DNA from: Microbacterium sp. 1S1
Lineage (GTDB): Bacteria > Actinomycetota > Actinomycetes > Actinomycetales > Microbacteriaceae
DNA length: 64,000 nt
Direction of reading: 5' to 3'
NCBI RefSeq assembly: GCF_008271365.1
Contig: NZ_CP043430.1
Location: 3,100,001 to 3,164,000 of the forward strand
Positions 5,398 to 38,057 of this stretch are shown here, in pieces. Below the pieces are notes generated by a model. It ran no database searches. It worked only from the letters and a program-made list of their open reading frames with translations, and had not been told where the DNA came from. Every line of letters begins with the position of its first letter. The first letter of the stretch is position 1. Position numbers and translations under genes: made by a program.

Positions 5398-7251
5398 ATG
5401 GGAGCAGGACGCCTCGCTGCCTACCTCCGCAGCGCGCCCCCGCTCGCTTCGTCAAGGGATCAGGCCATGCCACGCGCGGCACAGCGGCTCCTCCGGAAAG
5501 CTCGCACCGCAGACCTGAAAGTCGCCCTGCCCGCCTGTGGACAGTGCGGCGAAGAGCGCTTCCTGGAACAGACAAGTCCGACCGGAGAACGGCTCGGCGG
5601 GCGCTGCACGAAACGCCGCTACGCTGCGCCCTGCTCTATATGCGACAGGCTTCTACCAATCACGCGCCGCATTGGTGAGTCACAATTCTGCGCCAACTGC
5701 TGGCGGCGCGACCCGAGGTCGCGAAGGGAATGCGCGGAGTGTGGGCGGCTACGCACGACCCACTCCATCGTCGGCGACAAGCCGTACTGCAACGACTGCG
5801 TGCCGAAACCGCGGATCGTATGTTTCATCTGTCACGAGGTCCGGCGGCTTTACTCCGCACGCATCGGTACTGGAGTCTGTGAGAGCTGCTACATCTCGAC
5901 CGCCGGGTTTATGAAGCCGTGCCCTGAGTGCGGTGACAAACGTGTGATCGCCCACGACAAGGACGACAGACTGGTGTGTGCAGACTGTGCCGGGAACGCA
6001 CCACTTTTCACCTGCAATGAATGCGGAGGCGAACGGGGGGCACGGCGGACGCTGTGCTCGGGCTGCGATCTGGTGAAACAAGTCGAGGAGCTATTCTCCG
6101 AAGCGTCGGATAGCGACGCGCGTGCTGCCCTCGAACCTCTACGCCACTATCTCCTTTCCTACAAGCACGACGCGGACCGGCTTCTGCGCTGGATGAGCCG
6201 CAGCACTAGCATCGCGATCCTGCGGCGGATTCTCGATGGCGAGATCCCCATCAGTCAACGCGCGTTGGAGATGCCCGAGCATCCGCATGCAGCATTGCGC
6301 GTTCGGGCTCTGCTTGAAGTCACGGGATGTCTGACAGAAGAACGCGACCCCTGGGCGTCATATGAACAATGGGCGGATCAACTCATCGCGATTTGCCCAA
6401 AGGCGAACCGAGAGCAATTTACGATCTTCACCCGTTGGATCGTTCCTGCCACCGCGCGCGTGCAGATTCGACGACGAGGCATCACCGATAGCACCCTCAG
6501 CCGGGCCAGAGAGATGAGCCGCGCGGCGCTCGAATTCCTCCAGATGCTCGAAGCGCGGAACCTGTCGTTGCAATCCGCCCCGCAGTCGATCTTCGACGAG
6601 TTCGCTGCCTCGCGCCGCAGCAGAGCAATCGCGATCCGTCCTTTCATCCGATGGGCGAAACAGACCGGCGCGATGCGCCGAATCTCCGCCCCGGTACGAC
6701 CCAAGTCCGCCCCGTCGCTCGCCTACAGCGAGGCCACCCATCATTCTTGGGTGTCTCGCTTCCTCGAAGACGATCAGCTGAACGAGGGAACGAGGCTCGT
6801 CGGATTGATGGTCGGTCTCTACGCAGCGCCGATCACACGGCTCGTCAAACTCCAAGACAAGAACATCGTCTATCGAGGCGAAACGGCGACGCTTTCCCTC
6901 GGGAACGCTCCGCTCCACCTAGCGCCACGCGTCACCGAACTGCTCGGCATGCAACTGGCGCAGCGCGCTATATCCCCGGAAGGATGGTTATTCCCATCAC
7001 CCGCCCTTCCTGGCCGACACATCGACCCCTCGACGCTTACCAAACGCCTGAGAGACCTCGGCTGCGAGACCATCCTGCTGCGCGGCGCTGCGATGATCAA
7101 CCTGACCGCTACCGTCCCGCTCGGACCCTTGGCGGATCTCACAGGGCGATCACTATCGGCGACAGGCAGATGGATCAAGTCATCGGGTAGCACCTATCTG
7201 GTGTACCCGGCGATCCGGGATCCCTCCCGTCCTGGTGTGTCCAGCCAGTAG
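5398..7251 (+). CDS. Multi-zinc-ribbon tyrosine-recombinase-like protein
   Basis: From ATG 5398 this is 617 residues; homology-like sequence seems to begin slightly upstream, where no start codon exists, so the 5' end may be truncated. The N-terminal 200 residues hold about eleven C-x-x-C pairs, a string of zinc ribbons. The C-terminal part resembles actinobacterial 'site-specific integrase' proteins: L-M-V-G-L-Y-A-A-P-I-T-R-L-V-K-L aligns with recombinase box I and the last 60 residues with box II, but the catalytic Arg, His-x-x-Arg and Tyr are not recognisable. It is therefore probably a DNA-binding or accessory factor of a mobile element and not an active recombinase. It precedes the mod gene by 125 bp. 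Confidence 0.7.
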   Translation: MGAGRLAAYLRSAPPLASSRDQAMPRAAQRLLRKARTADLKVALPACGQCGEERFLEQTSPTGERLGGRCTKRRYAAPCSICDRLLPITRRIGESQFCANCWRRDPRSRRECAECGRLRTTHSIVGDKPYCNDCVPKPRIVCFICHEVRRLYSARIGTGVCESCYISTAGFMKPCPECGDKRVIAHDKDDRLVCADCAGNAPLFTCNECGGERGARRTLCSGCDLVKQVEELFSEASDSDARAALEPLRHYLLSYKHDADRLLRWMSRSTSIAILRRILDGEIPISQRALEMPEHPHAALRVRALLEVTGCLTEERDPWASYEQWADQLIAICPKANREQFTIFTRWIVPATARVQIRRRGITDSTLSRAREMSRAALEFLQMLEARNLSLQSAPQSIFDEFAASRRSRAIAIRPFIRWAKQTGAMRRISAPVRPKSAPSLAYSEATHHSWVSRFLEDDQLNEGTRLVGLMVGLYAAPITRLVKLQDKNIVYRGETATLSLGNAPLHLAPRVTELLGMQLAQRAISPEGWLFPSPALPGRHIDPSTLTKRLRDLGCETILLRGAAMINLTATVPLGPLADLTGRSLSATGRWIKSSGSTYLVYPAIRDPSRPGVSSQ

Positions 7252-7376
7252 AACACTGCCGGGAACTCGCGGCCTTCGTGTCCTCAGATGCTGTTGAGTA
7301 GGCTGAGATCGAGTCCGTGCCACTCGCGCACACGCGAGAACGGACTCGTTCTTGTCCTGCCAGAAGGAGCCCGCCC

Positions 7377-9488
7377 ATGTCGCGCTTGTCGGACCTGCTG
7401 CGCACCGTCAATCAACTCGATCCGCAGCTCGCTAAGGACCTCGACAGCGAGATCCAGCCACTCCAGAAGCGTCTACCGTTCGGGCTCAACTTCGAGCGTC
7501 ATGCGCCGGAGGCGGTGGAGCTTCCCGCGCACAAGATTCGCAAGATGAGCAAGGTTCGAGTGCTCCCTCCGAGAGGGGTGACGGGGCACGGCGACCAGCG
7601 CATCTGGACTGTCGATGGAATCAACGGAGAGACCGCCGACATCTCGACGCCGAACGGCGCGAAGATCGAGGCCGCCTCGGTGGCATTGGATGACCTGGTT
7701 CTCGTGGCCGAATTCCGTGACCGCATCTACCCCGGCCTGCGCCCCGACGGGACCATCGAGCGCGGCGGCAATAAGCCGTTCCATACGGTCATCAATGGCG
7801 AGAACTTCCACGTCCTGGAGCAGCTCACGTTCACGCACGAGAAGTCCGTGGATGCGATCTACATCGACCCGCCCTACAACACAGGATCGCGCGACTGGAA
7901 GTACAACAACGATTACGTCGAGGGCGACGACCTGTACCGGCATTCGAAGTGGCTGGCGTTCATGGAGCGGAGGCTGAAGCTCGCCAAGCGGCTCCTGAAG
8001 CCCGCGAGCTCCGTGTTGATAGTCACGATCGACGAGAAGGAGTACTTGCGCCTTGGCCTGCTACTGGAGCAGACGTTTCCCGAAGCGCGTATCCAGATGG
8101 TGACGAGCGTCATCAGTAGTCAAGGCTCAGTGCGTGACGGAATGTTCAGTCGGTCTGACGAATACATCTTCTTCGTGTTCATGGGGCAGATGGCAGCCGC
8201 CCGCACGACTGACGACATGCTGAACGAAGGCCAATCCGAGAGCAAGTCTCAGGTGTGGTTTCAATACGTTCGGACTGGCAAGGGGAACTTGAGGGCAGAC
8301 TCGCCCAACTTGTTCTTCCCGATTTTTGTAGAGGAAGCAACCGGACGCATTGTTCGGGTAGGGGCGCCGATTCCGCTTGGGACGAGTGTCGAGACGGTGC
8401 CAGTCCCAGCGGGTGAGGTCGCGGTATGGCCGAAGACCGCCACGGGCGCGGAAGCTCGCTGGCGCACAGGGGTCGAGGTCGCGCGACGGCGGGTCGAGAA
8501 AGGGCTGATCAGAGCCACCAAGTCCCAGCGACGGGGACGAGGCTACTCGATCATGACGGTGAACCAGGGCACCGAGGATCAGATCGAAAAGGGCGAACTC
8601 AGTGTGACCGGCCGCAACCCTTTGACTGGCGCAGCCATCATAGACACGTCGATGGTGTCTCGTGATCGTGCAGCAAAGACAACTTGGAACAGGGTCTCTC
8701 ATAATGCGGGATGGCATGGCTCGAAGCTCGTTGCGGGCCTTCTGCCGGGTCGTTCATTCCCATACCCGAAGAGCCTCTACGCAGTGGAGGATGCCCTGAG
8801 GTTCTTTCTATCCGACAAACCAAACGCGGTCATTCTCGACTTCTTCGCTGGTTCCGGGACGACAGCTCACGCTGTCATGCGCTTGAACAAGCAGGACGGC
8901 GGCCGCCGTCAGTGCATCTCGGTGACGAACAACGAAGTCTCGGCCGACGAACAGGCCGCTCTGCGCAGGAAGGGCGTGCGGCCTGGCGATCCCGAGTGGG
9001 AGAAGCTGGGCATCTGCGACTACATCACGAAGCCGCGCATCCGCGCCGCGATCACGGGCGAGACGCCCGACGGCGCCCCGATCAAGGGCGACTACAAGTT
9101 CGTCGACGAGTTCCCGATGGCTGAGGGGTTCGAGGAGAACGCCGCCTTCTTCACTCTGACGTACGAGTCGAAGTGGCTCGTCGGCGTGGACCGCGCGTTC
9201 GCGGCGATTGCTCCGATGCTGTGGCTACGCGCCGGTGCGGTCGGCTCTCGCATCGACTGGATCGAAGGCGGATGGGCGATCGCTGACAGCTACGGCATCC
9301 TTCGCGACCTTGACCAGGCCGCCGAGTTTGTCGAGGCACTGCGCGGGAAAGGCGGCATTCGGATCGTGTACGTCGTCACGGACGACGAGGGGCGGTACCA
9401 GCAGGTCGCCGACGAGATCCGCGGCGTCGAAACCGTCCGCCTATATGAAGACTACCTCCGCAACTGCGAGATGACGGGGGACTTCTGA
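7377..9488 (+). CDS. mod: Type III restriction-modification system, Mod methyltransferase subunit
   Basis: A 703-residue beta-class adenine-N6 methyltransferase. The catalytic motif IV DPPYNTG is at residues 164-170 and the S-adenosylmethionine motif I D-F-F-A-G-S-G-T-T at 488-496; this order (IV before I) and the long target-recognition region between them are those of Mod proteins. ATG 7377 is preceded by AGAAGGAG. The segment at about 8.08-8.82 kb, the presumed target-recognition domain, looks lower in GC than its surroundings, as is common for exchanged specificity domains. Its TGA overlaps the ATG of res by one base, so the subunits are coupled. Mod sets the specificity and protects host DNA. 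Confidence 0.93.
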   Translation: MSRLSDLLRTVNQLDPQLAKDLDSEIQPLQKRLPFGLNFERHAPEAVELPAHKIRKMSKVRVLPPRGVTGHGDQRIWTVDGINGETADISTPNGAKIEAASVALDDLVLVAEFRDRIYPGLRPDGTIERGGNKPFHTVINGENFHVLEQLTFTHEKSVDAIYIDPPYNTGSRDWKYNNDYVEGDDLYRHSKWLAFMERRLKLAKRLLKPASSVLIVTIDEKEYLRLGLLLEQTFPEARIQMVTSVISSQGSVRDGMFSRSDEYIFFVFMGQMAAARTTDDMLNEGQSESKSQVWFQYVRTGKGNLRADSPNLFFPIFVEEATGRIVRVGAPIPLGTSVETVPVPAGEVAVWPKTATGAEARWRTGVEVARRRVEKGLIRATKSQRRGRGYSIMTVNQGTEDQIEKGELSVTGRNPLTGAAIIDTSMVSRDRAAKTTWNRVSHNAGWHGSKLVAGLLPGRSFPYPKSLYAVEDALRFFLSDKPNAVILDFFAGSGTTAHAVMRLNKQDGGRRQCISVTNNEVSADEQAALRRKGVRPGDPEWEKLGICDYITKPRIRAAITGETPDGAPIKGDYKFVDEFPMAEGFEENAAFFTLTYESKWLVGVDRAFAAIAPMLWLRAGAVGSRIDWIEGGWAIADSYGILRDLDQAAEFVEALRGKGGIRIVYVVTDDEGRYQQVADEIRGVETVRLYEDYLRNCEMTGDF

Positions 9489-12040
9489 TGCGCTTCACGC
9501 TGAAGGACTACCAAGCAGACGCGGTCGGTGACACGCTGCGCGAACTGACCTCTGCGCGGGACTTCTACCGCAGCGCGAGCAGGCGAGTCTCGTCGGTGGC
9601 GCTGACGGCTACGACGGGCGCCGGTAAGACGGTCATGGCTGCGGCCGTGATCGAGTCGCTGTTCTGGGGCAGCGACGACTTCAGCATCGCGCCGGACCCC
9701 GGCGCCGTCGTGCTGTGGTTCAGCGACGACCCGGCGCTGAACCAGCAGACCAAGCATCGGCTGGAACAAGCGTCGGACCGCCTGCGCAACCGTCTCGTCA
9801 CGGTCGAGCACCCGTTCAGATACCAGAAACTCCAGTCGGGCAACGTCTACTTTCTGAACACCTCGAAGCTGTCGAAGAACAGCCTGCTCGTGCGGGGCCG
9901 CGACGACTCCAACACCCTGCCTGGCTTCGACTCGCATGCAGACACAGTGCCGTTCACGTTCTGGGACACCCTGCGGAACACGATCGAGGACAACGACCTC
10001 ACGCTCTACATGGTGCTTGACGAAGCACATCGGGGCATGGGCAAACGCCCGTCGGAGACGCCGACCATCGTGAAGCGCCTCATCAACGGCCACAATGACG
10101 TGCCGCCGGTGCCGATCGTCTGGGGCATCTCGGCGACTGTGCAGCGGTTCGAGGCTGCAATGAGCGAAGCCGAGGTGCAATCGAATCGTGTGCACCTCGC
10201 GACGGTGCAGGTGGACCCTGTGCGTATCCAGGAGTCGGGTCTACTGAAGGACGACATCGTGCTCGACTTTCCCGCGGAGACGGGTGATTTCAATACAGTG
10301 CTGCTGCGCCGGGGCGTCCGGAAGGTGAAAGGAATTTCTGCGGCCTGGACGGCGTACGCGAACGATCAGAACGAGGAGCCCGTCAGGCCCCTCATGGTGC
10401 TTCAGGTGCCGAACAAGCCGTCGCCGACGGAGGTCGCCTCGGCTATCGACGTGATCCGTGACGAGTGGCCTGAACTGGAGGCGGACGCGATCGCCCACGT
10501 CTTTGGCGAGCACACTGCGCAGACGTTCGGCTCGCACAGCGTGCCTTACATCTCCCCGGAGCGCGTGCAGGACGCCTCCTACGTCCGTGTGCTGCTTGCC
10601 AAGGACGCCATCAGCACGGGCTGGGACTGCCCGCGCGCTGAGGTCATGGTCTCGTTCCGCCCAGCGAGGGACGAGACGCACATCACGCAGCTTCTCGGCC
10701 GGATGATCCGTACACCGCTCGCCAGGCGTATCGAGGGCGACGACCTGCTCAACAGCGTCGAGTGCATCCTGCCGAAATTCAACAAGGCGACGGCCAGCCT
10801 CGTGCTGGAGCGGATCATGGGCAACGACCTGACCACGGGCGGCGGGACGGGACAGCGTGTCCTCGTCGACCCACAGGTCATGACGCCGAACCAGGCCGTC
10901 CCGGACGAGGTCTGGGAATTGTTCCAAGCCTTGCCTGCCGAGACACTGCCTCGCAAGCATGCGAACCCGATCAAGCGACTCACTTCGCTGGCACACGCGC
11001 TCGCGGCTGACCGGCTGCTAGCTGACGCGGGGAAGCTCGCCCACGAGCGCCTCCACGGTGTTCTGAACGGACTCTCGGCTCAGTATGCAAACGACCTGAC
11101 GAAGGCGCTCAAAGACGTTCAGACGGTTGCTGGCGGCACCGTTCGCGGACAAGCACGCCACGGGCTCCGCCAGGACGAGTCGTGGACGGAGTACGCGGAC
11201 GACCGCGCCATCCAGGACGCATATCGCACAGGCGCGCGGTCGATCACGCCAGACATCGCCCGTACCTACGTCGAACATCTCGCCGCGGACGCTGAGGACG
11301 AGGACGCCTACCGCGACGCGAACGTCCGAGTCGCAGCCCTCGCTATGCTGCCGCAGACCCGTCCCGCGCTCGATACCGAGGCCGACCGCATCGCACACGA
11401 GTGGCTCGGCAAGTACCGTGTCGCGATCAAAGACCTCTCCGAGTCAAGGCAGAGCCTCTACGCAGAGATCACCGCCATGAGCACGGACCCTCAGCTCATC
11501 TCAATGGCGTTGCCGAAGAACCGCCAGGAGGAGACGAAACGCGTCACCGGCGACTCCGAACAGCTCCTTGAACGACGGGCACTGCACTTGTTGGCCGACG
11601 ACGAGGGCATGTTCCCGGTCGGGAAGCTGAACCCCGACGAGATCGAGGTGCTGGACGCCGAGATGTCGAGGGGCGGGGCTCTGGCCTGGTATCGGAACCC
11701 AACAGGCGGCCGCGATTCGATGAGCATCGCCTACCAGGACCGTCACGGCGAATGGCGCACACTGCGCCCCGACTTCCTCTTCTTCGCCAACGGCGAAGAC
11801 GGAGTGCGAGCGAGCATCGTGGATCCCCACGGCCACTGGCTCCCGGACGCGGCGTGGAAGCTACACGGCATGGCGAGGTTCGCCGAGGCCTACGGGGACC
11901 AGTTCCACAGGATTGAGGCAATCAGCCGGATAGACGGGAAGCTCAGAGTGCTCGACTTGAAGCTCGCCGACGTGCGCGCGAAGGTGCTGAACGAATCCGA
12001 CGCGCGGTTCGCCTACGACCGCGCCGCCGTGGACTATTGA
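9488..12040 (+). CDS. res: Type III restriction-modification system, Res helicase/nuclease subunit
   Basis: An 850-residue superfamily 2 DNA translocase: Walker A T-T-G-A-G-K-T at residues 42-48, DEAH box at 178-181, and a motif VI-like Q-L-L-G-R-M-I-R-T-P segment. The C-terminal region holds a possible nuclease core, R-P-D-F-L-F-F with D762 and then S-I-V-D-P-H-G with D779 and H781, where classic Res enzymes have PD-(D/E)xK. Expected to translocate along DNA after Mod recognises unmodified sites and then cleave. Start ATG 9488 is fixed by the one-base overlap with mod. The variant catalytic motif is discussed under findings. Confidence 0.9.
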   Translation: MRFTLKDYQADAVGDTLRELTSARDFYRSASRRVSSVALTATTGAGKTVMAAAVIESLFWGSDDFSIAPDPGAVVLWFSDDPALNQQTKHRLEQASDRLRNRLVTVEHPFRYQKLQSGNVYFLNTSKLSKNSLLVRGRDDSNTLPGFDSHADTVPFTFWDTLRNTIEDNDLTLYMVLDEAHRGMGKRPSETPTIVKRLINGHNDVPPVPIVWGISATVQRFEAAMSEAEVQSNRVHLATVQVDPVRIQESGLLKDDIVLDFPAETGDFNTVLLRRGVRKVKGISAAWTAYANDQNEEPVRPLMVLQVPNKPSPTEVASAIDVIRDEWPELEADAIAHVFGEHTAQTFGSHSVPYISPERVQDASYVRVLLAKDAISTGWDCPRAEVMVSFRPARDETHITQLLGRMIRTPLARRIEGDDLLNSVECILPKFNKATASLVLERIMGNDLTTGGGTGQRVLVDPQVMTPNQAVPDEVWELFQALPAETLPRKHANPIKRLTSLAHALAADRLLADAGKLAHERLHGVLNGLSAQYANDLTKALKDVQTVAGGTVRGQARHGLRQDESWTEYADDRAIQDAYRTGARSITPDIARTYVEHLAADAEDEDAYRDANVRVAALAMLPQTRPALDTEADRIAHEWLGKYRVAIKDLSESRQSLYAEITAMSTDPQLISMALPKNRQEETKRVTGDSEQLLERRALHLLADDEGMFPVGKLNPDEIEVLDAEMSRGGALAWYRNPTGGRDSMSIAYQDRHGEWRTLRPDFLFFANGEDGVRASIVDPHGHWLPDAAWKLHGMARFAEAYGDQFHRIEAISRIDGKLRVLDLKLADVRAKVLNESDARFAYDRAAVDY

Positions 12041-14521: not shown

Positions 14522-15385
14522 TCATGCCGCGGTTGCGGCGGGGTTGTGAAGTCGTTCGAACTCCACGGGGCTGAGGTTGCCGAGCGCGGTGTGCGGGCGG
14601 GTGGGGTTGTAGAAGCCCTCGATCCACTCGAATATCGCCGACGACAGCTCGGTCCGGGATGTCCAGGTTGAGCGGTCGAGGAGCTCGCGTTGCATCGTGG
14701 ACCAGAAGGACTCGATGAGCGCGTTATCGACCGATGAGGCGACTCGCCCCATCGAGCCGAGCAGTCCGGCTTGCCTGAGTCGGTGGCCGAAGAGCCACGA
14801 CGTGTGTTGCGCTCCTCGGTCGGCGTGGACCACGGTGCCAGGCTCGGGTCGGCGGCGCCAGCGAGCCATTTCGAGCGCGTCAACGACGATCTCCGCGGTG
14901 ATTCTGTCTGAGATCGACCAGCCGACGACGCGGCGGGAGAACGCGTCGATCACTGCGGCGCAGTAAACCCACCCGTCTTTCGCGCGATGCTGCGTGATGT
15001 CACAGAACCAGAGCCGGTTCGGCTCGTGCGCGCGGAACTGTCGCTTCACGAGGTCCTCGTGCGTCGCCGTGTCCGGCTTCCAGCCTCGTCGTTTGCGTCG
15101 ATGAGACACCCCGGTCAGGCCATCCAGGCGCATCACCCGGGCGACGCGCTTCTTGCCCACGTGGACACCGAGCCCGAGCCGCAGCTCGGCCAGCACCCGC
15201 GGGGCACCATAGGTGCCGCGCGAATCGCGGTGAACCCGCCGGATCGTCGCCGGGGGCGCCCTATCAGCGATCGTCCGCGGCGATGGCGGACGCGACGCCC
15301 ACTCGTAGTATCCCGAGGTCGACACCCTGAGGAACCGGCAGGCCACCGCGACGGGAACCCCATCCGCGGCAAGCTCCTGGACCAA
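14522..15385 (-). CDS. IS3-family transposase OrfB (DDE integrase core)
   Basis: About 287 residues if counted from a TTG at 15385; in vivo it is most likely made only as an OrfAB fusion by frameshifting. The catalytic triad is visible: D in L-W-F-C-D-I-T, D in V-V-H-A-D-R-G-A-Q-H, and E in D-N-A-L-I-E-S-F-W. The HTH_21-like segment S-T-S-G-Y-Y-E-W and the C-terminal N-P-T-R-P-H-T-A-L-G are normal for the family. No internal stop, so the protein looks intact. Confidence 0.93.
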   Translation of the reverse strand: MVQELAADGVPVAVACRFLRVSTSGYYEWASRPPSPRTIADRAPPATIRRVHRDSRGTYGAPRVLAELRLGLGVHVGKKRVARVMRLDGLTGVSHRRKRRGWKPDTATHEDLVKRQFRAHEPNRLWFCDITQHRAKDGWVYCAAVIDAFSRRVVGWSISDRITAEIVVDALEMARWRRRPEPGTVVHADRGAQHTSWLFGHRLRQAGLLGSMGRVASSVDNALIESFWSTMQRELLDRSTWTSRTELSSAIFEWIEGFYNPTRPHTALGNLSPVEFERLHNPAATAA

Positions 15386-19134: not shown

Positions 19135-21801
19135 TCATGCCCCTGACGTCAGCGTCGCGGCCTCGGCGAGGGCGGCGGCGAGATACGGTGCTGAAGCGCT
19201 GTTTCTCGACGCGGCGACCTCTGCTGGCGTTCCGGACGCGACCACTGTGCCGCCGTCGTCACCGGCTCCCGGCCCGAGATCGATGACGTAGTCGGCTGCG
19301 CCGACCACCCGCATGTCGAGTTCCACCATCACGACCGTGTTGCCCGCATCGACGAGAGTCTGAAGGTGGGTAACTAGACGGTCTGCGTCGGCACAGTGCA
19401 ATCCGGAGGTCGGCTCATCGAGCACATACAGAGTGTCGCCGCGCTGCGCTCGTTGCAGTTCGGTGGCCAGCTTCACACGCTGCGCCTCCCCACCGGAGAG
19501 CTCTGTGGCCGGCTGTCCCAAGCGCAGATAACCGAGCCCGACATCAACCAGCGAGGTGAGTGAGCGCATCACGTCGTACTCGCCGGCGAAGAACTCGTGA
19601 GCCTCTTCGACGCTCATCGCGAGGATTTCCGCGATGTTGCGCCCTCGCCAGGTGATCTCCAGGGTGCTCGATTGATAGCGGGTGCCATGGCAGTCGGGAC
19701 ACACGGTGTAGACCGAGGGCAGGAAGAGCAGCTCGACCATCACGGAGCCTTCACCCTCACAGGTCGGGCAACGGCCGCCTGCGACATTGAAGGAGAACCG
19801 ACCGGGCTTGTATCCGCGTGTCCGAGCTTCCGGCGTCTCGGCGAACCGGCGCCGCACATGATCGAAGAGTCCTGTGTAGGTCGCGACGTTGGAGCGGGGC
19901 GTGCGGCCGATGGGTTTCTGGTCGATGCTCACCACACGCCGGACCGTCGTGAGGTCGCCCTCGACCGACCCTCCGAGTTCATCGGACTCGTCAGTGAGGA
20001 GCAGGGTGTCGGCCTCTGCGTTGTCCTCCTCGATGCGACGGGTGTCTCCTTGCCTGGCGCCGATGAGGGCTGGCAGGACTTGACTGACAAGGCTGGACTT
20101 CCCCGACCCTGACACGCCAGTGACAGCCGTGAGCGTTCCGAGCGGTAGCGCCACAGATACGTCCCGCAGGTTGTTGCGGGTGACGTGCTCCAGCTGCAAC
20201 CAGTCGTGGGCGGCACGGGGCTGGTGCGGTGGGAGGCCGCTGCCTCCGAAGATGTATCCGCGCGTCACCGACTCGTCGACCTCCGCGAGCCCGTCCGTGG
20301 GGCCGCTGTAGATCACGCGCCCGCCGCGTTCCCCGGCTCCGGGGCCGATGTCGACGAGCCAGTCCGCGTGCCGCATGACGTCGACGGAGTGTTCCACGAC
20401 GAAGAGGCTGTTGCCGCGCTGCTTGAGGCCGTCGAGGATACCCAGCAGCGCGGTGACGTCGTGCGGATGGAGACCGGCTGACGGTTCGTCGAGGACGTAG
20501 ACGACACCGAACAGTTCCGACGTGAGTTGCGTGGCGAGTCGAAGTCGTTGCAGTTCCCCCCCGGACAGTGTCGGCGTCGTACGGCTCAGCGAGAGGTAGC
20601 CGAGTCCGAGGTCGATGATGGGGCGCAGGCGGTCCAGCAGCTCGGCACCGAGGCGGGCTGCCGCGGCGCGCTTCTCGGCGGACCGATTCGGCGTGCGACG
20701 GACATCGGGTGCAGCGGAGTGCGCAGACCCGCCTGCAGCGACGCGTTGTGCGACGGCCTCGCGCCTGGTCTCGACGTCTATCGTTGCGCCGGAGGTCTCG
20801 TCCTCGAGGTCGGATTCGGCGACGACGGGCACGAGAAGTTCTGCCAATTCACGCAGTGGCAAGGCTGAGAAGTCGGCGATGTCCAGTCCTTCGAACGTGA
20901 CCGTCAGCGCTTCGGGCTTGAGCTTCTTCCCCTGGCACACCGGGCACACCGCTGCGCTCATGAACTGGGCTACGCGGCGCTTCATCGACGCGCTCTTCGT
21001 GTTTGCGAAAGTGTCGAGCACGTATCGTCGCGCGCCGACGAACGTGCCTGAGTAGCTCGGTTCGATCCCCGCTTGGATCGCCCGTCGAGCCTCAGCGAGC
21101 GTGAGTCGCGAGTGAACCGGGACGAACGGAGTCTCGTCGGTGTAGAGGATCCAGTCCCGATCCTTCTTCGGCAGATCTTTCCACGGCACATCCACGTCAT
21201 AGCCGAGCGCGACCAGCACATCGCGCAGCTGGTGGCCGTGCCAGGCGGTCGGCCACGATGCGATGGCGCGTTCCCGGATGGTGAGTGAAGGATCGGGGAC
21301 CATCCGCTCCTCGGTCACCGCGTACACTCTGCCAATGCCGTGGCACTCGGGGCACGCGCCCTGCACGGTGTTCGCGGAGAAGTCCTCGGCGTAGAGCATC
21401 GGCTGACCATCTGGGTATGCACCTGCTCGCGAATAGAGCATCCGAACCACACTCGACAGCGTGGTGATGCTGCCTACAGAGGAGCGCGCGCTGCGCCCTC
21501 CGCGCTGCTGCTGCAAGGCGACTGCGGGCGGCATCCCAGTGATGGAGTCGACGTCGGGGACACCCGCCTGGTCGATCAGTCGCCGCGCGTACGGGGCAAC
21601 TGACTCTAAGTAGCGCCGCTGCGACTCCGCGTACAACGTGCCGAAAGCCAAGGAGGACTTCCCGGATCCGGACACGCCCGTGAACACGACCATCGCGTCA
21701 CGCGGAACCGTGAGATCGACGTCCTTGAGGTTGTGTTCCCGGGCACCACGCACCCGGACATCGGGCTGGACGTGGGGGGACGCTGAGGAAAGGTGATCCA
21801 T
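19135..21801 (-). CDS. UvrA2-like ABC-type ATPase (excinuclease A paralogue)
   Basis: An 888-residue UvrA-family protein. The first Walker A, G-V-S-G-S-G-K-S, is at residues 42-49 and a second at G-V-S-G-S-G-K-S-S-L-V-S; two L-S-G-G-E signatures and zinc-binding pairs C-P-E-C, C-P-V-C and C-P-T-C...C-P-D-C are present. It is shorter than canonical UvrA (about 950 residues), as in the UvrA2/DrrC-like branch linked to tolerance of DNA-intercalating drugs. The start is uncertain: ATG 21801 precedes the conserved region, and an ATG at 21843 adds 14 residues; neither has a strong Shine-Dalgarno. Being in an accessory region, it is unlikely to be the housekeeping uvrA. Confidence 0.85.
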   Translation of the reverse strand: MDHLSSASPHVQPDVRVRGAREHNLKDVDLTVPRDAMVVFTGVSGSGKSSLAFGTLYAESQRRYLESVAPYARRLIDQAGVPDVDSITGMPPAVALQQQRGGRSARSSVGSITTLSSVVRMLYSRAGAYPDGQPMLYAEDFSANTVQGACPECHGIGRVYAVTEERMVPDPSLTIRERAIASWPTAWHGHQLRDVLVALGYDVDVPWKDLPKKDRDWILYTDETPFVPVHSRLTLAEARRAIQAGIEPSYSGTFVGARRYVLDTFANTKSASMKRRVAQFMSAAVCPVCQGKKLKPEALTVTFEGLDIADFSALPLRELAELLVPVVAESDLEDETSGATIDVETRREAVAQRVAAGGSAHSAAPDVRRTPNRSAEKRAAAARLGAELLDRLRPIIDLGLGYLSLSRTTPTLSGGELQRLRLATQLTSELFGVVYVLDEPSAGLHPHDVTALLGILDGLKQRGNSLFVVEHSVDVMRHADWLVDIGPGAGERGGRVIYSGPTDGLAEVDESVTRGYIFGGSGLPPHQPRAAHDWLQLEHVTRNNLRDVSVALPLGTLTAVTGVSGSGKSSLVSQVLPALIGARQGDTRRIEEDNAEADTLLLTDESDELGGSVEGDLTTVRRVVSIDQKPIGRTPRSNVATYTGLFDHVRRRFAETPEARTRGYKPGRFSFNVAGGRCPTCEGEGSVMVELLFLPSVYTVCPDCHGTRYQSSTLEITWRGRNIAEILAMSVEEAHEFFAGEYDVMRSLTSLVDVGLGYLRLGQPATELSGGEAQRVKLATELQRAQRGDTLYVLDEPTSGLHCADADRLVTHLQTLVDAGNTVVMVELDMRVVGAADYVIDLGPGAGDDGGTVVASGTPAEVAASRNSASAPYLAAALAEAATLTSGA

Positions 21802-21826
21802 TTCGGAACTGTACCAAGCGGCTCTC

Positions 21827-22066
21827 GTGGTAAGCAGGTTCATCGACCGTGGGAGGCAAGATGATGCGGCTGTCTACCGGCTCTTCAAGGTTCGTGGTGA
21901 AGGGCGCTTCGTCGGCATCGTCTTTACCAACACGTTCGAGGATTCCCTCCCCTCTACGGGAGCAGATGGGGCAACAGCGATACTCGCGCTGCTTCTTGGT
22001 CTCGGCATCCTTGGCGGGGGCGCCTGGCTGGTGACGACAAGTAGGAGGAGACGTCTCACGCGATGA
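21827..22066 (+). pseudogene. Orphan LPXTG cell-wall-anchor tail
   Basis: The frame ends with V-F-T-N-T-F-E-D-S-L-P-S-T-G-A-D, about 20 hydrophobic residues and R-R-R-R-L-T-R: a complete sortase signal (LPSTG, membrane segment, positive tail). The V-F-T-N-T-F before it is typical of the last Ig-like repeat of pilin or adhesin proteins. No signal peptide or adhesin body precedes it, only the divergent uvrA-like gene, so this is the broken end of a lost surface protein. Confidence 0.65.
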
Positions 22067-32755: not shown

Positions 32756-33319
32756 TTATGTTCGGCGCGCTTCTCGAATAAGTCGGAGCAACTTCTGAGT
32801 ACGAGCACGTTCAAGTCGTCCGTTTCGGAGTCGCAGCAATTGACGGCCGAGCCATCGCGCGAGCACGAACTCTGCCCGATCTGCCGCGTGCAATCGAGGA
32901 AGGGTGCGATGCGCTGCGACGAATCGTTCGCATTCTTCGAACCTTTCGTTCCACGCGCGATCCAGGGGATCCCACTCGAAAGCGGGTGAGACGTCGAGTC
33001 GAGCGCGCTGGTACGCGTTCAGGCCGCCTTCGAAGCGACGCTGATACCGAGCCCACTCGCCGAGATGGCGTTCCTCGTCCATGAGGGTCGTCCTCGCGCG
33101 AGTGTTCTCGCGTGGCGCGCGACCGTGGTGTCGCCAGTGATCTTCGTAGGCATGGAGAGAACGGATCCAGGTCGCTGCGCGGCGCTGAGGTACGACTTGG
33201 TCGTCAAGAACCAACGTCACCGCCGCGGCGAACCGGTCGGCGACGGGATCGACGGGCCCCTCCGCCCGTCGTAGTTGTTCAGCTTCTTGGTGGAGTTCTG
33301 CAGGGGTCGACGCGCGCAC
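32756..33319 (-). CDS. Free-standing helicase-associated (HA) domain protein
   Basis: A 187-residue protein made of two repeats of the helicase-associated domain: W-I-R-S-L-H-A-Y-E-D-H-W-R-H-H-G-R-A-P and then L-G-E-W-A-R-Y-Q-R-R with L-N-A-Y-Q-R-A-R-L; a second N-E-R-F-E-E-C-E-R-F...L-A-R-W-L-G-R-Q-L-L-R-L-R-N-G-R-L unit follows. Such small helical repeats normally follow an SF2 helicase core and bind nucleic acid; here no helicase is attached or adjacent. Start is GTG 33319, preceded by AAAGGA. It is divergent from the recombinase-like module. Confidence 0.75.
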   Translation of the reverse strand: MRASTPAELHQEAEQLRRAEGPVDPVADRFAAAVTLVLDDQVVPQRRAATWIRSLHAYEDHWRHHGRAPRENTRARTTLMDEERHLGEWARYQRRFEGGLNAYQRARLDVSPAFEWDPLDRAWNERFEECERFVAAHRTLPRLHAADRAEFVLARWLGRQLLRLRNGRLERARTQKLLRLIREARRT

Positions 33320-33476: not shown

Positions 33477-33794
33477 GTGCAGATCGACGACGAGCCGCAG
33501 GTCCGGGTGCTCGACGAGATGGACGGCGTCTTCGTCGTGACCACAGATGATGGAGTCGAGTACTGCCTCGACATGAACAACCGACAGGTCACCCGCACGG
33601 TAGAAGTGCGCACAGGGGTCCGTACGGTGCTCGACCCAGAATCCGCCGCGCTGGTCGCTGTCGCGACGTGCCGAGTCGGCGTTCCGATGGTGCTCCTCAT
33701 CGACCGAGACGTCCCCGGAGTGTTGTTCACTCGCCGCACGTCCGCCACGGTGTTGAGCATCAACCAGGTGTCACGAACACCACTCCCGCAGTAG
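33477..33794 (+). CDS. Hypothetical protein heading the recombinase-like module
   Basis: 105 residues from GTG 33477, selected because AAAGGAGG lies at 33462-33469 with ideal spacing; the frame reaches an ATG at 33450 that lacks such a site. The protein is beta-rich (R-V-L-D-E-M-D-G-V-F-V-V-T-T-D-D-G-V-E-Y-C-L-D-M) and has no recognised motif. It ends 13 bp before the first recombinase-like gene, so it is probably the first gene of that operon. Confidence 0.6.
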   Translation: MQIDDEPQVRVLDEMDGVFVVTTDDGVEYCLDMNNRQVTRTVEVRTGVRTVLDPESAALVAVATCRVGVPMVLLIDRDVPGVLFTRRTSATVLSINQVSRTPLPQ

Positions 33795-33807
33795 GAACAG
33801 CTGGACC

Positions 33808-34728
33808 ATGGCCGATACCAAGGTCGACGATGAGGCCGACGACGGAGCCTTCGCGCCGAAGAAGGCGGCACGGTACTGGACGACGCTGGGGCCGGTCGTG
33901 ACGGCTGCGGTGAACAAGACGGCGAGTCGGACGGGTCGGGAGGCGCGTTCGCTGTATCCGGTCGCGACGGCGTTCGTGCTGTGGGCGTGGCAGACCAAAG
34001 GCCTGGAACTCGACGTCGCACAGATGTTCCGGCGTCGACTGGTCGAAGAGTACGTCCACCGAGGGATGGAATCGTTCACGCGCGGGAGCCGGGCCACGTA
34101 TCGCTCCGTCCTCCTCACCATCGTCGACACCGTGACCCCACCCTCAGAGGCCCCCTTCCCTATTCCTCGGTCTGATCCCACTCCGCCATACAACTCAGCT
34201 GAGATCGCTGCCCTCCGGAGCTGGGCCGGCGCCCAGGGGTCGACTGTCCGCCGTCGTGACGCGGCCGCCCTCCTCGCGATGGGGTTCGGAGCAGGCCTCG
34301 CGACCCGTGAACTTCTGTCGGTGCGCACCGGGGACATCGACGTGCGCGGGGACGACGTTCATATCCTGGTATGGTCGGGGCGACCACGGCTCGTCCCGGT
34401 TCTCCCTGCATGGCAACCCGCACTCCGAGAAGCGATAGAAGAGCTGGGCGACGACCAGTGGGTATTCCGTATTGGACGCACGGGGGTGCGGTCGGCTCAG
34501 GTCACCGACTTTTTACATCGGGGGCACAAGACAGAGCTGGATGTTAGGCCGGCGCGGATGCGGACGACTTGGTTGCTCACCCATCTGCAGGCCCGGACAC
34601 CTCCGGGGGAACTCCTTCGTATCGCAGGGCTCGAGCACCTTGCGGCGCTGGATAGGATTCGACGGTTCCTTCCGTCGCGGGCACCACTTCCGCCATCGAA
34701 GTCCGACTTCGAGCGCTCTCGGGACTAG
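33808..34728 (+). CDS. Degenerate tyrosine-recombinase-like protein 1
   Basis: 306 residues. A helical N-terminal domain (about 1-110) is followed by a recombinase-type C-terminal domain: L-L-A-M-G-F-G-A-G-L-A-T-R-E-L-L-S-V occupies box I, but the catalytic Arg (normally G-L-R) is Ala; V-R-P-A-R-M-R-T-T-W-L-L-T-H-L occupies box II with the His replaced by Ala; G-L-E-H keeps the second His, and the nucleophilic Tyr position is not a Tyr. It should therefore bind DNA or partner proteins without cutting. 12-74 bp separate it from the next gene depending on that gene's start. Confidence 0.65.
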   Translation: MADTKVDDEADDGAFAPKKAARYWTTLGPVVTAAVNKTASRTGREARSLYPVATAFVLWAWQTKGLELDVAQMFRRRLVEEYVHRGMESFTRGSRATYRSVLLTIVDTVTPPSEAPFPIPRSDPTPPYNSAEIAALRSWAGAQGSTVRRRDAAALLAMGFGAGLATRELLSVRTGDIDVRGDDVHILVWSGRPRLVPVLPAWQPALREAIEELGDDQWVFRIGRTGVRSAQVTDFLHRGHKTELDVRPARMRTTWLLTHLQARTPPGELLRIAGLEHLAALDRIRRFLPSRAPLPPSKSDFERSRD

Positions 34729-34802
34729 GCCGGTGCGCTGTGCTGCGGGAAGTGCGACACGCCGTACGCACGCTTTGGCGACTGGCCGCGTACACGGTGG
34801 TC

Positions 34803-35795
34803 ATGAACCCAAACCACCGACTCAGCGACAACCTCGACGAGACCGCAGCACTACTCGCATCCCACCCGCAGCTGCCCGAGCTGGCCGCGCCCATCATCGT
34901 CAAGTACCGGCCCAACAGCGCCGCCCTGGCTGGCGCCTGGACGGCCACACGCTCCTTCACCGTCGAGACCGCAGCCGCGATGCTGCCGCACTCGTTCGAT
35001 GTGGCTCGCCGGCTGATGACGATGTCCGCGTCGTTCCACATGTGGGTGTGGGCGCGGACGGGTACAGAGCTGACGATCCGTCGGGTCTACACGCAGAGCA
35101 ACATCGACCGGTTTCTCGAGACGGTCCATAAGAACCGATCCGCGGGTCACCGGTGGGGCGTATCCCGTCAGCTGGTGAAGATCGGTCGCGAGCTCGCCGA
35201 CGCCGACCTCATCGCCATCACGGCACCGCACGGCAAGGTCCGCTCCCCGTTCACGACGAAGCAGATCGCGTCGATGCACAGCTGGGCGAACTCGCTCACC
35301 ACCGTGAAGAAGCGCCAGAACGCTCAGGCGCTCCTCGGACTGGCCGGCGGCGCTGGACTGACCGCGGCCGAGATCGTCAACGTCCGCGTCGCCGACATCC
35401 ACCGCGACGGCGACGTCGTCTTCGTCGATGTCGTCGGCAAGCGTGCCCGACGCGTACCTGTGCGACACGCCTGGGCTCGGGTGCTGCTTCGCAGCATCGA
35501 CGGCCGGGCCGACGCCGACCAGCGTCTGTTTCGTGGACCGCGGATCGCCGAGTACCCGCCCCGCATCATCCAGTCCTTCCTCACTGACCACCCCGCGCCC
35601 GTCCGTCCCACCCCGGCAGCGCTTCGTGCGGCGTGGTTGCTGCACCACATCAACAACAACGTGCCGCTGCCCGTGCTCCGTGAAGTGGCCGGGTTCGAGC
35701 ACTACTCGACCCTCGTTCGGTACTACGAGCACGCGAACGTGCTGGATGTCGCTGACTTCACTGCTCAGCTCGTCGGAGCGGAGGTCGCACGATGA
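34803..35795 (+). CDS. Degenerate tyrosine-recombinase-like protein 2
   Basis: 330 residues from ATG 34803; a GTG at 34740 would add 21. Box I reads G-G-A-G-L-T-A-A-E-I-V-N-V with Thr in place of the catalytic Arg; box II reads T-P-A-A-L-R-A-A-W-L-L-H-H-I with Ala for His but the Arg kept; G-F-E-H and the terminal L-V-R-Y-Y-E-H are conserved, so a Tyr is present. It resembles the first protein in domain layout. Its stop overlaps the ATG of the transposase-like gene by 4 bp, showing a coupled operon. Confidence 0.65.
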   Translation: MNPNHRLSDNLDETAALLASHPQLPELAAPIIVKYRPNSAALAGAWTATRSFTVETAAAMLPHSFDVARRLMTMSASFHMWVWARTGTELTIRRVYTQSNIDRFLETVHKNRSAGHRWGVSRQLVKIGRELADADLIAITAPHGKVRSPFTTKQIASMHSWANSLTTVKKRQNAQALLGLAGGAGLTAAEIVNVRVADIHRDGDVVFVDVVGKRARRVPVRHAWARVLLRSIDGRADADQRLFRGPRIAEYPPRIIQSFLTDHPAPVRPTPAALRAAWLLHHINNNVPLPVLREVAGFEHYSTLVRYYEHANVLDVADFTAQLVGAEVAR

Positions 35796-37738
35796 CCTCC
35801 GTCGACATCGACTACTACCGCGCCTTCGACGACAACGACGACTGCGGCATCACCGAGCGCGAGGTCCTCGGTCGCGGCCGCGACCTCCAGCAGTTCGACG
35901 ACTCCACTGTGGCCTTGGCGGAAACCCGCGTCCGGCAGTCCGGCATCCTCGAGCAACTCGACCGTTGGGCCGCTGAAGATGCCAAACGCGACGGTATGGG
36001 CGGACGACCCGCGATGATCTCCTACCGCGCCCTGCTCACCGCCCTCCTTCTTCTTGCTCAGGAAGGGGCCCCGCTCCACATCCGGCGTGCCGCGTACGTT
36101 CTTCAGCACAGGCTCTCCACGAAGTCCAGCGACCTCCTCGACCTGCCCGAGACGCCCACGAGCTTTGCTACCCATGTCGCCACAACGAAGCGCTGGTACA
36201 CGAACACGATTCGCGCGTTCCACCGAATGAAGACCCTGATGGACCCCTACCCGCAGGAGCTCTACACTGCCAAGACCCACACTCAGATCCAGGAGATCCT
36301 TCGCAATCACGACGCAGAGCGCGCGGAGAAGTACAAGGCGCGCCTGGACGAGTACACCCGCCTTTTTATCCGCATGACGTTCATGCTCCAGCCGCGAGAA
36401 GTGCGTCGGGCTTCGAAGCAGATGGATCTCTCCTTCGACCAGACCTACATCGGCACACCCACCACCAAGGGGTACAGCCGCAAGCATCTCGCGAGCAAGG
36501 TCAAGGCTGAAAAGGGAGCCGATTTCGGCGAGGTCTCCCCTGGCCCCGTGGACGCCTTCGCCGGGTGGCACGTCAAGAGCGGCAAAGCTGAGCGCGTCGA
36601 CAACCAGAAGGGCGAGGTCGACCAGACCGCACCTGAACGCGGGAAGTCGGGAGACTACGACTGGGGATGGGTGGCGAACCTGGCCGTTCGCGTCGACGCC
36701 GAGCAGCCCAGCTCAAAGCGGTTCCCGAGTCTCGTGGTCGCCGCGTCCCTCAGCATCCCGAACATGGAGGTCGCCGAAGAAGCTGCGCACCTCCTCGAAG
36801 CCGCAGCGATGCTCGACCTCGCCCCTGGTGTCGCCGACGCTGACAAGCAGTACTGGGCCAACGCCAAGCCCTTCCGACTCCTGAAGCCGGCATTGAAAAC
36901 CGGCTTCACTCCGTCCACGGACTACCGATCCGACCGCGTCGGCGTCAAGGGTGGCCAGCACGGCGCCTTGTTCGTCGAAGGCGACGCGTACTGCCCGAGC
37001 ACGCCGAAGCCCCTCCTGAACGCCACTCCGGATCGTCTCGGCGACGTGATCGACGTCGCAACGCATCGAGCCCGAATCGAAGAGCGGAAGGCCTTCCAGC
37101 TGCACGTCAAAGACAAGGCGAAGACGCCTGACGGAAAAGTGATGCTGCGCTGCCCGGCCCTCGGCGCCAGTCCGACGGTCACCTGCCCACTCCGCGAGAT
37201 GATGCTCAGCGCGGCTAAGAAGGCCCGCCCCGAGGTCGAGCCCGAGACCCTGGAAGAAGAGTTCCTCGACACCATCTGCAAGAAGCACTCGGCCGCGTTC
37301 GACCTCACTGAGATGCAGGCCCCGCAGCAGGCCTTCGCCTACGGCACCGAAGAGTGGGAGACCTTCCACGACCACGCCCGCAACACCGTCGAGTCCGGAA
37401 ACCATCAGCTCAAGGCATCAGGCGACGCAGACATCGAAACCGCCGGTCGCCGCCGCGTCCGCGGAATCGCCGCCGCACAGATCCTCGTCACACTCCTCAT
37501 CGCGGCCCACAACATCCGGAAGATCGCAGCCTTCTTCAGCGACCGAGAGATCGAACGAGCGCGCACGACTCCACGTGTCCACACCATCCGCCGCCGCGAC
37601 CGCGTCTGGGCCAATCGCTACACGAAGACCACAGGCAACGGCGACCTCAGTATCCCCCGAGGCGGTCGAGCATCGTCGCTGACGAACACACCGCCCGGCC
37701 AACCGAGCGAGCTCGCGCTGACACCAATGCGCACCTGA
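35792..37738 (+). CDS. DDE transposase-like protein
   Basis: 648 residues. An N-terminal helical part (M-I-S-Y-R-A-L-L-T-A-L-L-L-L-A) is followed by an RNase-H-like core: first Asp in D-L-S-F-D-Q-T-Y-I near residue 213, second Asp in G-V-A-D-A-D-K-Q-Y-W near residue 350, and Glu in N-T-V-E-S-G-N-H-Q-L-K near residue 535, followed by R-R-V-R-G-I-A-A-A-Q and A-H-N-I-R-K-I-A. This is the pattern of IS4/IS1182-like transposases of actinobacteria. The spacing and residues look intact. It is the last gene of the module and is followed by a terminator at 37807-37835. Terminal inverted repeats were not found by eye. Confidence 0.75.
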   Translation: MTSVDIDYYRAFDDNDDCGITEREVLGRGRDLQQFDDSTVALAETRVRQSGILEQLDRWAAEDAKRDGMGGRPAMISYRALLTALLLLAQEGAPLHIRRAAYVLQHRLSTKSSDLLDLPETPTSFATHVATTKRWYTNTIRAFHRMKTLMDPYPQELYTAKTHTQIQEILRNHDAERAEKYKARLDEYTRLFIRMTFMLQPREVRRASKQMDLSFDQTYIGTPTTKGYSRKHLASKVKAEKGADFGEVSPGPVDAFAGWHVKSGKAERVDNQKGEVDQTAPERGKSGDYDWGWVANLAVRVDAEQPSSKRFPSLVVAASLSIPNMEVAEEAAHLLEAAAMLDLAPGVADADKQYWANAKPFRLLKPALKTGFTPSTDYRSDRVGVKGGQHGALFVEGDAYCPSTPKPLLNATPDRLGDVIDVATHRARIEERKAFQLHVKDKAKTPDGKVMLRCPALGASPTVTCPLREMMLSAAKKARPEVEPETLEEEFLDTICKKHSAAFDLTEMQAPQQAFAYGTEEWETFHDHARNTVESGNHQLKASGDADIETAGRRRVRGIAAAQILVTLLIAAHNIRKIAAFFSDREIERARTTPRVHTIRRRDRVWANRYTKTTGNGDLSIPRGGRASSLTNTPPGQPSELALTPMRT

Positions 37739-37806: not shown

Positions 37807-37835
37807 CGAACGCGCCCGAAAACCGGGCGCGTTCG
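37807..37835 (+). terminator. Terminator after the transposase-like gene
   Basis: CGAACGCGCCCG pairs with CGGGCGCGTTCG around AAAAC, followed by TGTTTTCG. It closes the recombinase-like operon. Confidence 0.75.
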
Positions 37836-37898: not shown

Positions 37899-37943
37899 AG
37901 AAAAGGGAAGGGCACCTGCTCGAAGCAGGTGCCCTTCCCTTTC
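37899..37943 (-). terminator. Terminator downstream of tRNA-Pro
   Basis: AAGGGAAGGGCACCTGCT pairs perfectly with AGCAGGTGCCCTTCCCTT around CGA. The 18-bp stem lies 40 bases downstream of the tRNA on its strand and would also stop plus-strand transcripts. Confidence 0.8.
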
Positions 37944-37980
37944 TCTAGCTGTTCTGCAATCAGTATTGCCAACAGCCCAT

Positions 37981-38057
<77 letters not shown>

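Follow-up and report, generated by a model that had tools for sequence, protein, structure and literature searches.

What is the role of an operon in which two recombinase-like genes that lack catalytic residues are coupled to a gene for a DDE transposase, and why should such an operon lie next to a tRNA gene? This question is raised by a locus of Microbacterium sp. 1S1 (GCF_008271365.1, contig NZ_CP043430.1), within a stretch of 64,000 nt (positions 3,100,001-3,164,000 of the forward strand) that is called the window below; its own numbering is used unless genome positions are named. The answer that best fits our analysis is that these genes serve as the transposition module for a 53,910-bp DDE transposon outside the Tn7 group, which homes to the 3' ends of tRNA genes, with the dead tyrosine-recombinase-like (TR) proteins probably guiding the choice of landing site. 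Insertion in one direction, to within a base or so, at tRNA gene ends is observed in many actinobacteria.

The element and its insertion site

The transposon spans genome positions 3084069-3137978, with the operon at its right end (RE); the window holds the part from 1 to 37978 (plus strand), and the left end (LE) lies outside, 15,932 bp to the left of window base 1. There ATTGGT is followed by GGGCTGTTGGCA at genome position 3084069, one of three matches in a genome-wide pattern search for this LE. The RE (37949-37978, plus strand) terminates in ...TTGCCAACAGCCC. The first 12 bp of the LE equal the inverted RE, and the two ends agree at 14/20 positions overall. ATTGGT is duplicated perfectly (6/6) at both ends, on the right at 37979-37984, where base 37984 is the discriminator base N73 of an intact tRNA-Pro(ggg) gene (37981-38057, minus strand). 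On one strand the joint is at N73, on the other it is 5 nt downstream of this base; the end with the DDE gene adjoins the tRNA, and the tRNA gene stays whole. The first LE search had assumed that the duplication directly follows the terminal CCC and yielded no LE for the window; the register of 5 nt plus N73 was taken from a 9.0-kb element (locus L053) and from alignment on N73.

Unoccupied versions of the target support these ends. Genome G422 (L104), the only one of 29 genus mates examined (L081-L109) that has the left flank of the window element, aligns at 75% with the last 327 bp left of the LE, up to the tRNA gene, and at this empty site AATAAGCCTGTAGTGGTCGGGC is uninterrupted. A second empty site, in G241 (L189), matches both flanks of the L053 element at 94-95%, with the junction at N73 of tRNA-Leu. 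A comparison of empty and occupied sites had been proposed in an earlier note made from this DNA sequence alone, and these two sites provide it.

Related elements have ends of the same kind. The group sequences are GGGyTGTT... for the LE and ...AACAGCCC for the RE, and when the REs are aligned on the tRNA, 33 of 45 finish in CCC at a distance of 4-6 nt from N73. These 45 loci were scanned for LEs, defined by a 5-bp duplication ending at N73 together with a terminal inverted repeat that matches the inverted RE at 12/20 positions at least; for 20 loci only, the scan included an extra 20 kb upstream. Besides the window's own, LEs were found in 11 of the 45, at distances of 7-28 kb. The sixth base of the duplication played no part in the scoring and agrees in 9 of the 11, the duplication being only 5 bp in L053 and L073. 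Repeats of at least 12/20 occurred in 11/45 real cases versus 37/1980 when ends were swapped between loci and 15/843 when a locus's own end was paired with a shuffled duplication; at 14/20 or more, the figures were 6/45 and, for swapped ends, 1/1980. Given these control rates, chance may account for a few LEs at the weak end of the range. Element sizes range from about 7 to 54 kb, with cargo between the ends.

Elements have also been inserted serially at the same gene. At a tRNA-Met, an older RE, its duplication and a newer LE follow each other as GAAACCGCC-ACTTGT-GGCCC, and a similar stack at a tRNA-Pro reads AACAGCCC-TTTGGT-GGGCTGTT.

tRNA genes as targets across the family

The set studied closely consisted of 50 loci: the window, nine named loci and 40 stretches picked among DDE-protein matches in Microbacteriaceae, with longer matches favoured; G218 and G260, which are near-duplicates, were excluded along with the majority of short fragments. 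These loci contain 55 DDE open reading frames (ORFs) or pieces. For 46 of them, distributed over 45 loci, a tRNA gene follows downstream at no more than 500 bp, in every case convergent (46/46). The distance from DDE gene to tRNA gene has a median of 234 bp (quartiles 223-247, range 58-296). Among the 43 long DDE ORFs (560 aa or more), 40 lie no more than 500 bp from a convergent tRNA gene, versus 2 of 762 control ORFs, which were the other stop-to-stop ORFs of at least 300 aa in the same loci, many of them probably not genes. The targets of the 46 pieces are Pro(ggg) in 14, Leu(cag) in 10, Met in 6, Ser(cga) in 6 and Ser(gct) in 3, with single cases of Thr, Pro(cgg), Ala(tgc), Ala(ggc), Leu(gag), Lys and Gln. 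Even at the same tRNA-Pro, the 5 nt before N73 differ from genome to genome (ATTGG, TCTGG, TCCGG, CGCTG, TTCGG), as independent insertions would give.

The pattern extends beyond the family Microbacteriaceae. In a phylum-wide set, 17 of 22 loci were examined; the remaining five were fragments that overlap within the same matches. Of the 17, 11 have a convergent tRNA gene (Leu, Met, Ser, Tyr or Gly) or transfer-messenger RNA (tmRNA) gene at 116-243 bp. The tmRNA case is L172, convergent and 203 bp from the DDE ORF; the end of this copy carries two repeats around TTTCGTGAAC.

Could the same distribution arise from a general preference, for terminator hairpins or for tRNA-rich safe sites, followed by biased survival and with no dedicated selector? 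The 3' ends of tRNA genes are indeed hotspots for other islands, those of genus mates included. Such a preference would not readily place CCC in a nearly fixed register to N73, nor leave a single orientation. The range of targets, with many isoacceptors plus tmRNA, also argues against it, as does their clustering by isotype on a tree of 39 DDE proteins, where 10 target changes are needed versus 23.9 with shuffled labels. We regard this explanation as very improbable.

The other islands at the same tRNA-Pro in genus mates have 3' tRNA fragments of 30-48 bp farther out, in the style of tyrosine-integrase islands (L114 8578-8625, L118 9085-9129, L121 near 7418).

The proteins of the transposition module

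The operon was described in the earlier note as four tightly spaced plus-strand genes that end at a terminator beside tRNA-Pro, and this layout holds. A 105-aa ORF without assigned function, P1 (33477-33794), is followed after 13 bp by TR-A (33808-34728, 306 aa); 74 bp farther on, or 11 bp with the GTG at 34740 as start codon, comes TR-B (34803-35795, 330 aa), which overlaps the DDE transposase gene (35792-37738, 648 aa) by 4 bp. Hairpins lie 3' of the DDE gene at 37807-37835 (read off the sequence) and at 37902-37942.

The three acidic residues that had been claimed for the 648-residue protein, D216, D351 and E534, are invariant in 18 of 18 aligned DDE proteins, that of the window included. 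Four of these 18 match NCBIfam NF033551, the IS1182-family transposases (best E 1.7e-6), and three have sub-threshold matches to Pfam DDE_Tnp_1_6 (best E 0.015). The window protein itself had no match in NCBIfam up to E 1, and hence none to NF033551; no PDB structure was matched by the DDE profile, only a chance-level match was seen in PHROGs, and none in PADLOC or a phage collection. By these profile comparisons, the window protein appears to be a remote relative of the IS1182-family transposases. The terminal inverted repeats, the duplication of fixed length and the conserved acidic triad are all hallmarks of DDE transposons, and the DDE protein would presumably catalyze the joining of the ends.

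The TR proteins were compared with the XerD and XerC of the host itself. At the position of the box I Arg, TR-A has Ala and TR-B has Thr; in both, the box II His is replaced by Ala, His/Trp III is missing and the box II Arg is retained. The catalytic Tyr is absent from TR-A and present in TR-B. Neither has Lys in the hairpin Lys column, a reading that is uncertain for TR-B, which has a Lys three columns off (GKRA). The losses that had been noticed from the sequence (box I Arg and box II His in both proteins, Tyr in the first) are therefore borne out by alignment, with the residues missing from their aligned places and not merely displaced. Across the family, 72 TR proteins were aligned and 69 kept, L002_A, L002_B and L067_B being removed as fragmentary or mis-assigned; since the TR-A and TR-B profiles fused on iteration, the names A and B follow gene order. 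The box II His is found in 0 of the 69, His/Trp III in 0, Lys in 1, the box I Arg in 18, the Tyr in 35 and the box II Arg in 67, and no protein combines box I Arg, box II His/Lys, box II Arg and Tyr (0/69).

The profile of TR-B matches an XerC-like recombinase (PDB 4a8e, E 6.4e-11), the protein matches Pfam Phage_integrase (E 1.9e-8), and hhalign to XerD gives E 7.6e-5. Its predicted model is modest (pLDDT 63, pTM 0.45), with Cre and XerH as the best PDB matches over nearly the full length (E about 1e-4, TM-score only about 0.3). By its profile matches TR-B clearly resembles the tyrosine recombinases, and profiles and model together indicate that it would adopt their fold, with its core-binding and catalytic domains. 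For TR-A, the Pfam match is sub-threshold (0.19) and hhalign to XerD gives E 0.12; a PHROG integrase match has E 2.2e-5, and TR-A is 29% identical to TR-B over 239 aa.

These properties bear on another explanation, in which the locus is an ordinary tyrosine-integrase island at a tRNA gene, with the DDE gene as a passenger. It would account for the location at tRNA 3' ends and for the recombinase-like genes, and two copies, L044 and the broken copy L005, do lie beside a 3' half-tRNA of the sort that integrase islands leave. The lack of a complete catalytic set in all the TR proteins argues against it, as do ends with inverted repeats and 6-bp duplications in place of long att identity. Furthermore, in L005 and L044 the RE and the duplication come before the half-tRNA, directly so in L044 (a tRNA-Pro), an order consistent with the later arrival of an integrase island at this tRNA; such an island would leave the half-tRNA there. 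The passenger explanation is thus scarcely credible.

A comparison of the window with locus L002 (33808-37738 versus 6039-9947) gives 97.5% DNA identity for the DDE gene, 86% for TR-A and 88% for TR-B, with 75-85% in the host flank, and TR-B of L002 is split between frames. In this pair, the DDE gene seems to have had a different recent history from the TR genes.

Distribution of the module

DDE-protein matches, fragments counted, occur in 61 of 299 Microbacteriaceae genomes and 34 of 85 genera, and a profile search across the phylum found 16 of 296 genomes, both genome counts including the strain itself. A scan of public genome contigs gave nine loci, the nearest in Microbacterium sp. A20 (98%). 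A TR-like gene stands directly upstream of the DDE gene in 41 of the 43 long ORFs, with a second TR within 7 kb in 29 of 43, and a TR-like ORF was seen in 12 of the 17 phylum-wide loci. The suspicion that the cassette might not recur or move as a unit is thus answered by its presence in other genomes, with defined ends, target duplications and empty sites. Six copies were found on Streptomyces plasmids; in the two examined (L204, L205), the TR-like gene and the DDE gene share 4 bp and match the family profiles at E about 1e-49 to 1e-79, and both genes are annotated only as "hypothetical protein" in the two records.

How is the target selected?

We propose that the DDE protein would join LE and RE to the target DNA with a 6-bp stagger, while the TR-like proteins would bind the tRNA gene as target selectors and recruit the DDE-bound ends in one orientation. 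Where two TRs exist, TR-A would be the likelier specificity subunit; in one-TR elements, the single protein would do the same job. Tyrosine integrases often recognise tRNA genes. The dead pair had earlier been suggested to act as target- or end-binding factors, which is still the best fit, and some support now exists for the target part, in that TR-A tracks the tRNA target. Among the 26 loci with both TRs (325 pairs), TR-A proteins are more alike in pairs with the same target than DDE identity predicts (residual +0.03 to +0.04, 0/2000 permutations). The gap amounts to 5-8 points at DDE identities of 0.22-0.42, about 3 points at 0.42-0.52 and about 11 points at 0.62-0.80. For TR-B the same-target excess is unclear (p 0.06-0.11). 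These sequence comparisons lend moderate support to TR-A as a candidate target selector.

Alternatively, the DDE protein itself might recognise the tRNA gene, with the TR-like proteins binding repeats at the element's ends in synapsis, asymmetry or regulation. In a 48-nt stretch of the RE, a 10-bp direct repeat with at least 8 matches was found in 32 of 45 loci (lags of 12-31 examined), at a lag of 12 bp in 12 loci, 13 in 1, 22 in 15 and 23 in 4; the window's own repeat is weak (7/10 at 12 bp). The repeat sequence varies by element and resembles the element's own LE where one was found, so an element-encoded factor probably reads the repeats, which look like binding sites for such a protein. 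Against this alternative, the repeats at the ends of a DDE transposon are normally bound by its transposase, and the tracking of target by TR-A goes beyond what DDE similarity would lead one to expect. Both roles may coexist. On balance, we consider recognition of the tRNA gene by the DDE protein unlikely.

Several observations weigh against the selection of tRNA targets by the TR proteins. No TR-A gap is seen in the DDE-identity bin 0.52-0.62, and TR-B, within about 1.5 points elsewhere, has a gap of about 9 points in the 0.62-0.80 bin. The permutation test for TR-A ignores shared ancestry, and an earlier run, whose 27 loci included a mis-assigned L002 row, was not significant (p 0.11 for TR-A, 0.08 for TR-B). 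To general models, TR-A is a weak match to the tyrosine recombinases. L045 has no TR, in L077 the TR is 1.2 kb away, and one-TR elements are also found at tRNA genes, so the pair is not essential. As for the sites, CCC is absent within 14 nt of N73 in 10 of 45 REs (GCC or another end), and the yield of LEs was low. Three long copies in the family set are exceptions to tRNA adjacency, and two of them (L045, L061; the third is L044) are not at a tRNA gene. No tRNA was seen in the short stretch examined at 6 of the 17 phylum-wide loci, nor within 4 kb of the two Streptomyces plasmid copies, which possibly reflect a second target mode or remnants.

Relation to known systems

Dead recombinases coupled to a DDE enzyme would, according to the earlier note, be a different design. 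The coupling is real, and it has a precedent in TnsF of the Tn7-like Tn6022, a protein with an inactivated tyrosine recombinase domain. In the available text of Faure et al. (2023, PMC10293859), TnsF was shown to bind comM, and Tn6022 needs it in order to transpose. In both cases an inactivated tyrosine recombinase would be the target selector of a DDE transposon. As that text describes it, TnsF carries N-terminal zinc fingers and acts on comM together with TniQ, TnsA, TnsB and TnsC, whereas the targets here are tRNA genes and many elements have two TRs; by the same description TnsF has 498 aa, versus roughly 300-330 aa for TR-A and TR-B. Homing of DDE transposons to tRNA genes is known as well: the CRISPR-associated transposons (CAST) I-B2 and I-D reach them through TnsD, and CyCAST inserts 30-33 nt downstream of the tRNA (portions of PMC10293859 and PMC11406308). 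The selector there is TnsD/TniQ, and the insertion point here is N73 itself. Thus, as far as these portions go, both an inactivated-recombinase selector and tRNA homing were already known, in Tn7 relatives. Outside Tn7, the same partial text has a TnsF-type protein select the target of Tsy, a likeness to the present element; Tsy uses active tyrosine recombinases, the authors found no inverted repeats, and no DDE enzyme is named for it there (PMC10293859).

The element shares with Tn7-like transposons a site- and orientation-specific insertion beside a conserved gene and a short (6-bp) duplication. In a Pfam scan of 33 of its 44 ORFs (the four cassette genes and 29 of 40 others, leaving out 11 mostly short ORFs and the 2 kb at genome positions 3098001-3100000), no TnsA, TnsC/TniB or TniQ was found, and the sole rve match was a nested IS3-like OrfB (HTH_21 + rve; 14522-15385, minus strand). 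From IS1182 elements it differs in its operon with TR genes, its site specificity and its cargo of up to tens of kb. Two or three consecutive genes for tyrosine recombinases are familiar from Tn554, RIT and GInt elements, in which the recombinases are the catalysts; here the DDE enzyme is the likely catalyst and the TRs lack the catalytic set. Among the literature matches listed, in a coverage outside which preprints and most subscription papers fall, none describes a module of TR and DDE genes.

Cargo and neighbouring genes

An ORF similar to P1 precedes TR-A in L002, L004, L006 and L009; its wider distribution was not used, as an iterated P1 profile strayed to other ORFs. To the left of the cassette, a minus-strand ORF of 187 aa (32756-33319) has a Helicase-associated domain (PF03457); its DNA is 86% identical in L002, with weaker partial similarity in L004, L006 and L007, and it may be part of the transposition module. 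Cargo was surveyed in window 1-33000 and in L153 6069-20000. It includes type III restriction-modification genes (7317-12040), a PDC-S37/Hhe-like helicase-nuclease (L153 8031-13643), a kinase beside a DO-GTPase2 protein, a UvrA-type ATPase matching MADS mad3 (19135-21843), VIT1, ferric reductase and ApbE genes, a histidine kinase with a response regulator, and a Na/Ca exchanger.

Conclusions

We lean toward the broader view that these elements form an independent, phylum-wide class of site-specific DDE transposons with Tn7-like homing and without a TnsC-type ATPase or TniQ, in which dead TRs would read the end of a tRNA or tmRNA gene and place the DDE protein at N73, and in which exchange or divergence of one TR would retarget the element to another tRNA. 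If so, this class would explain part of the actinobacterial tRNA islands that have no working integrase, and with them large cargo islands, which here carry defence and metal genes. It would also represent a second acquisition of a recombinase-derived guide by a DDE transposon, outside Tn7. With a compact module of two or three genes, defined ends and duplications, and many natural tRNA specificities, target choice by dead recombinases becomes testable through a one-gene swap.

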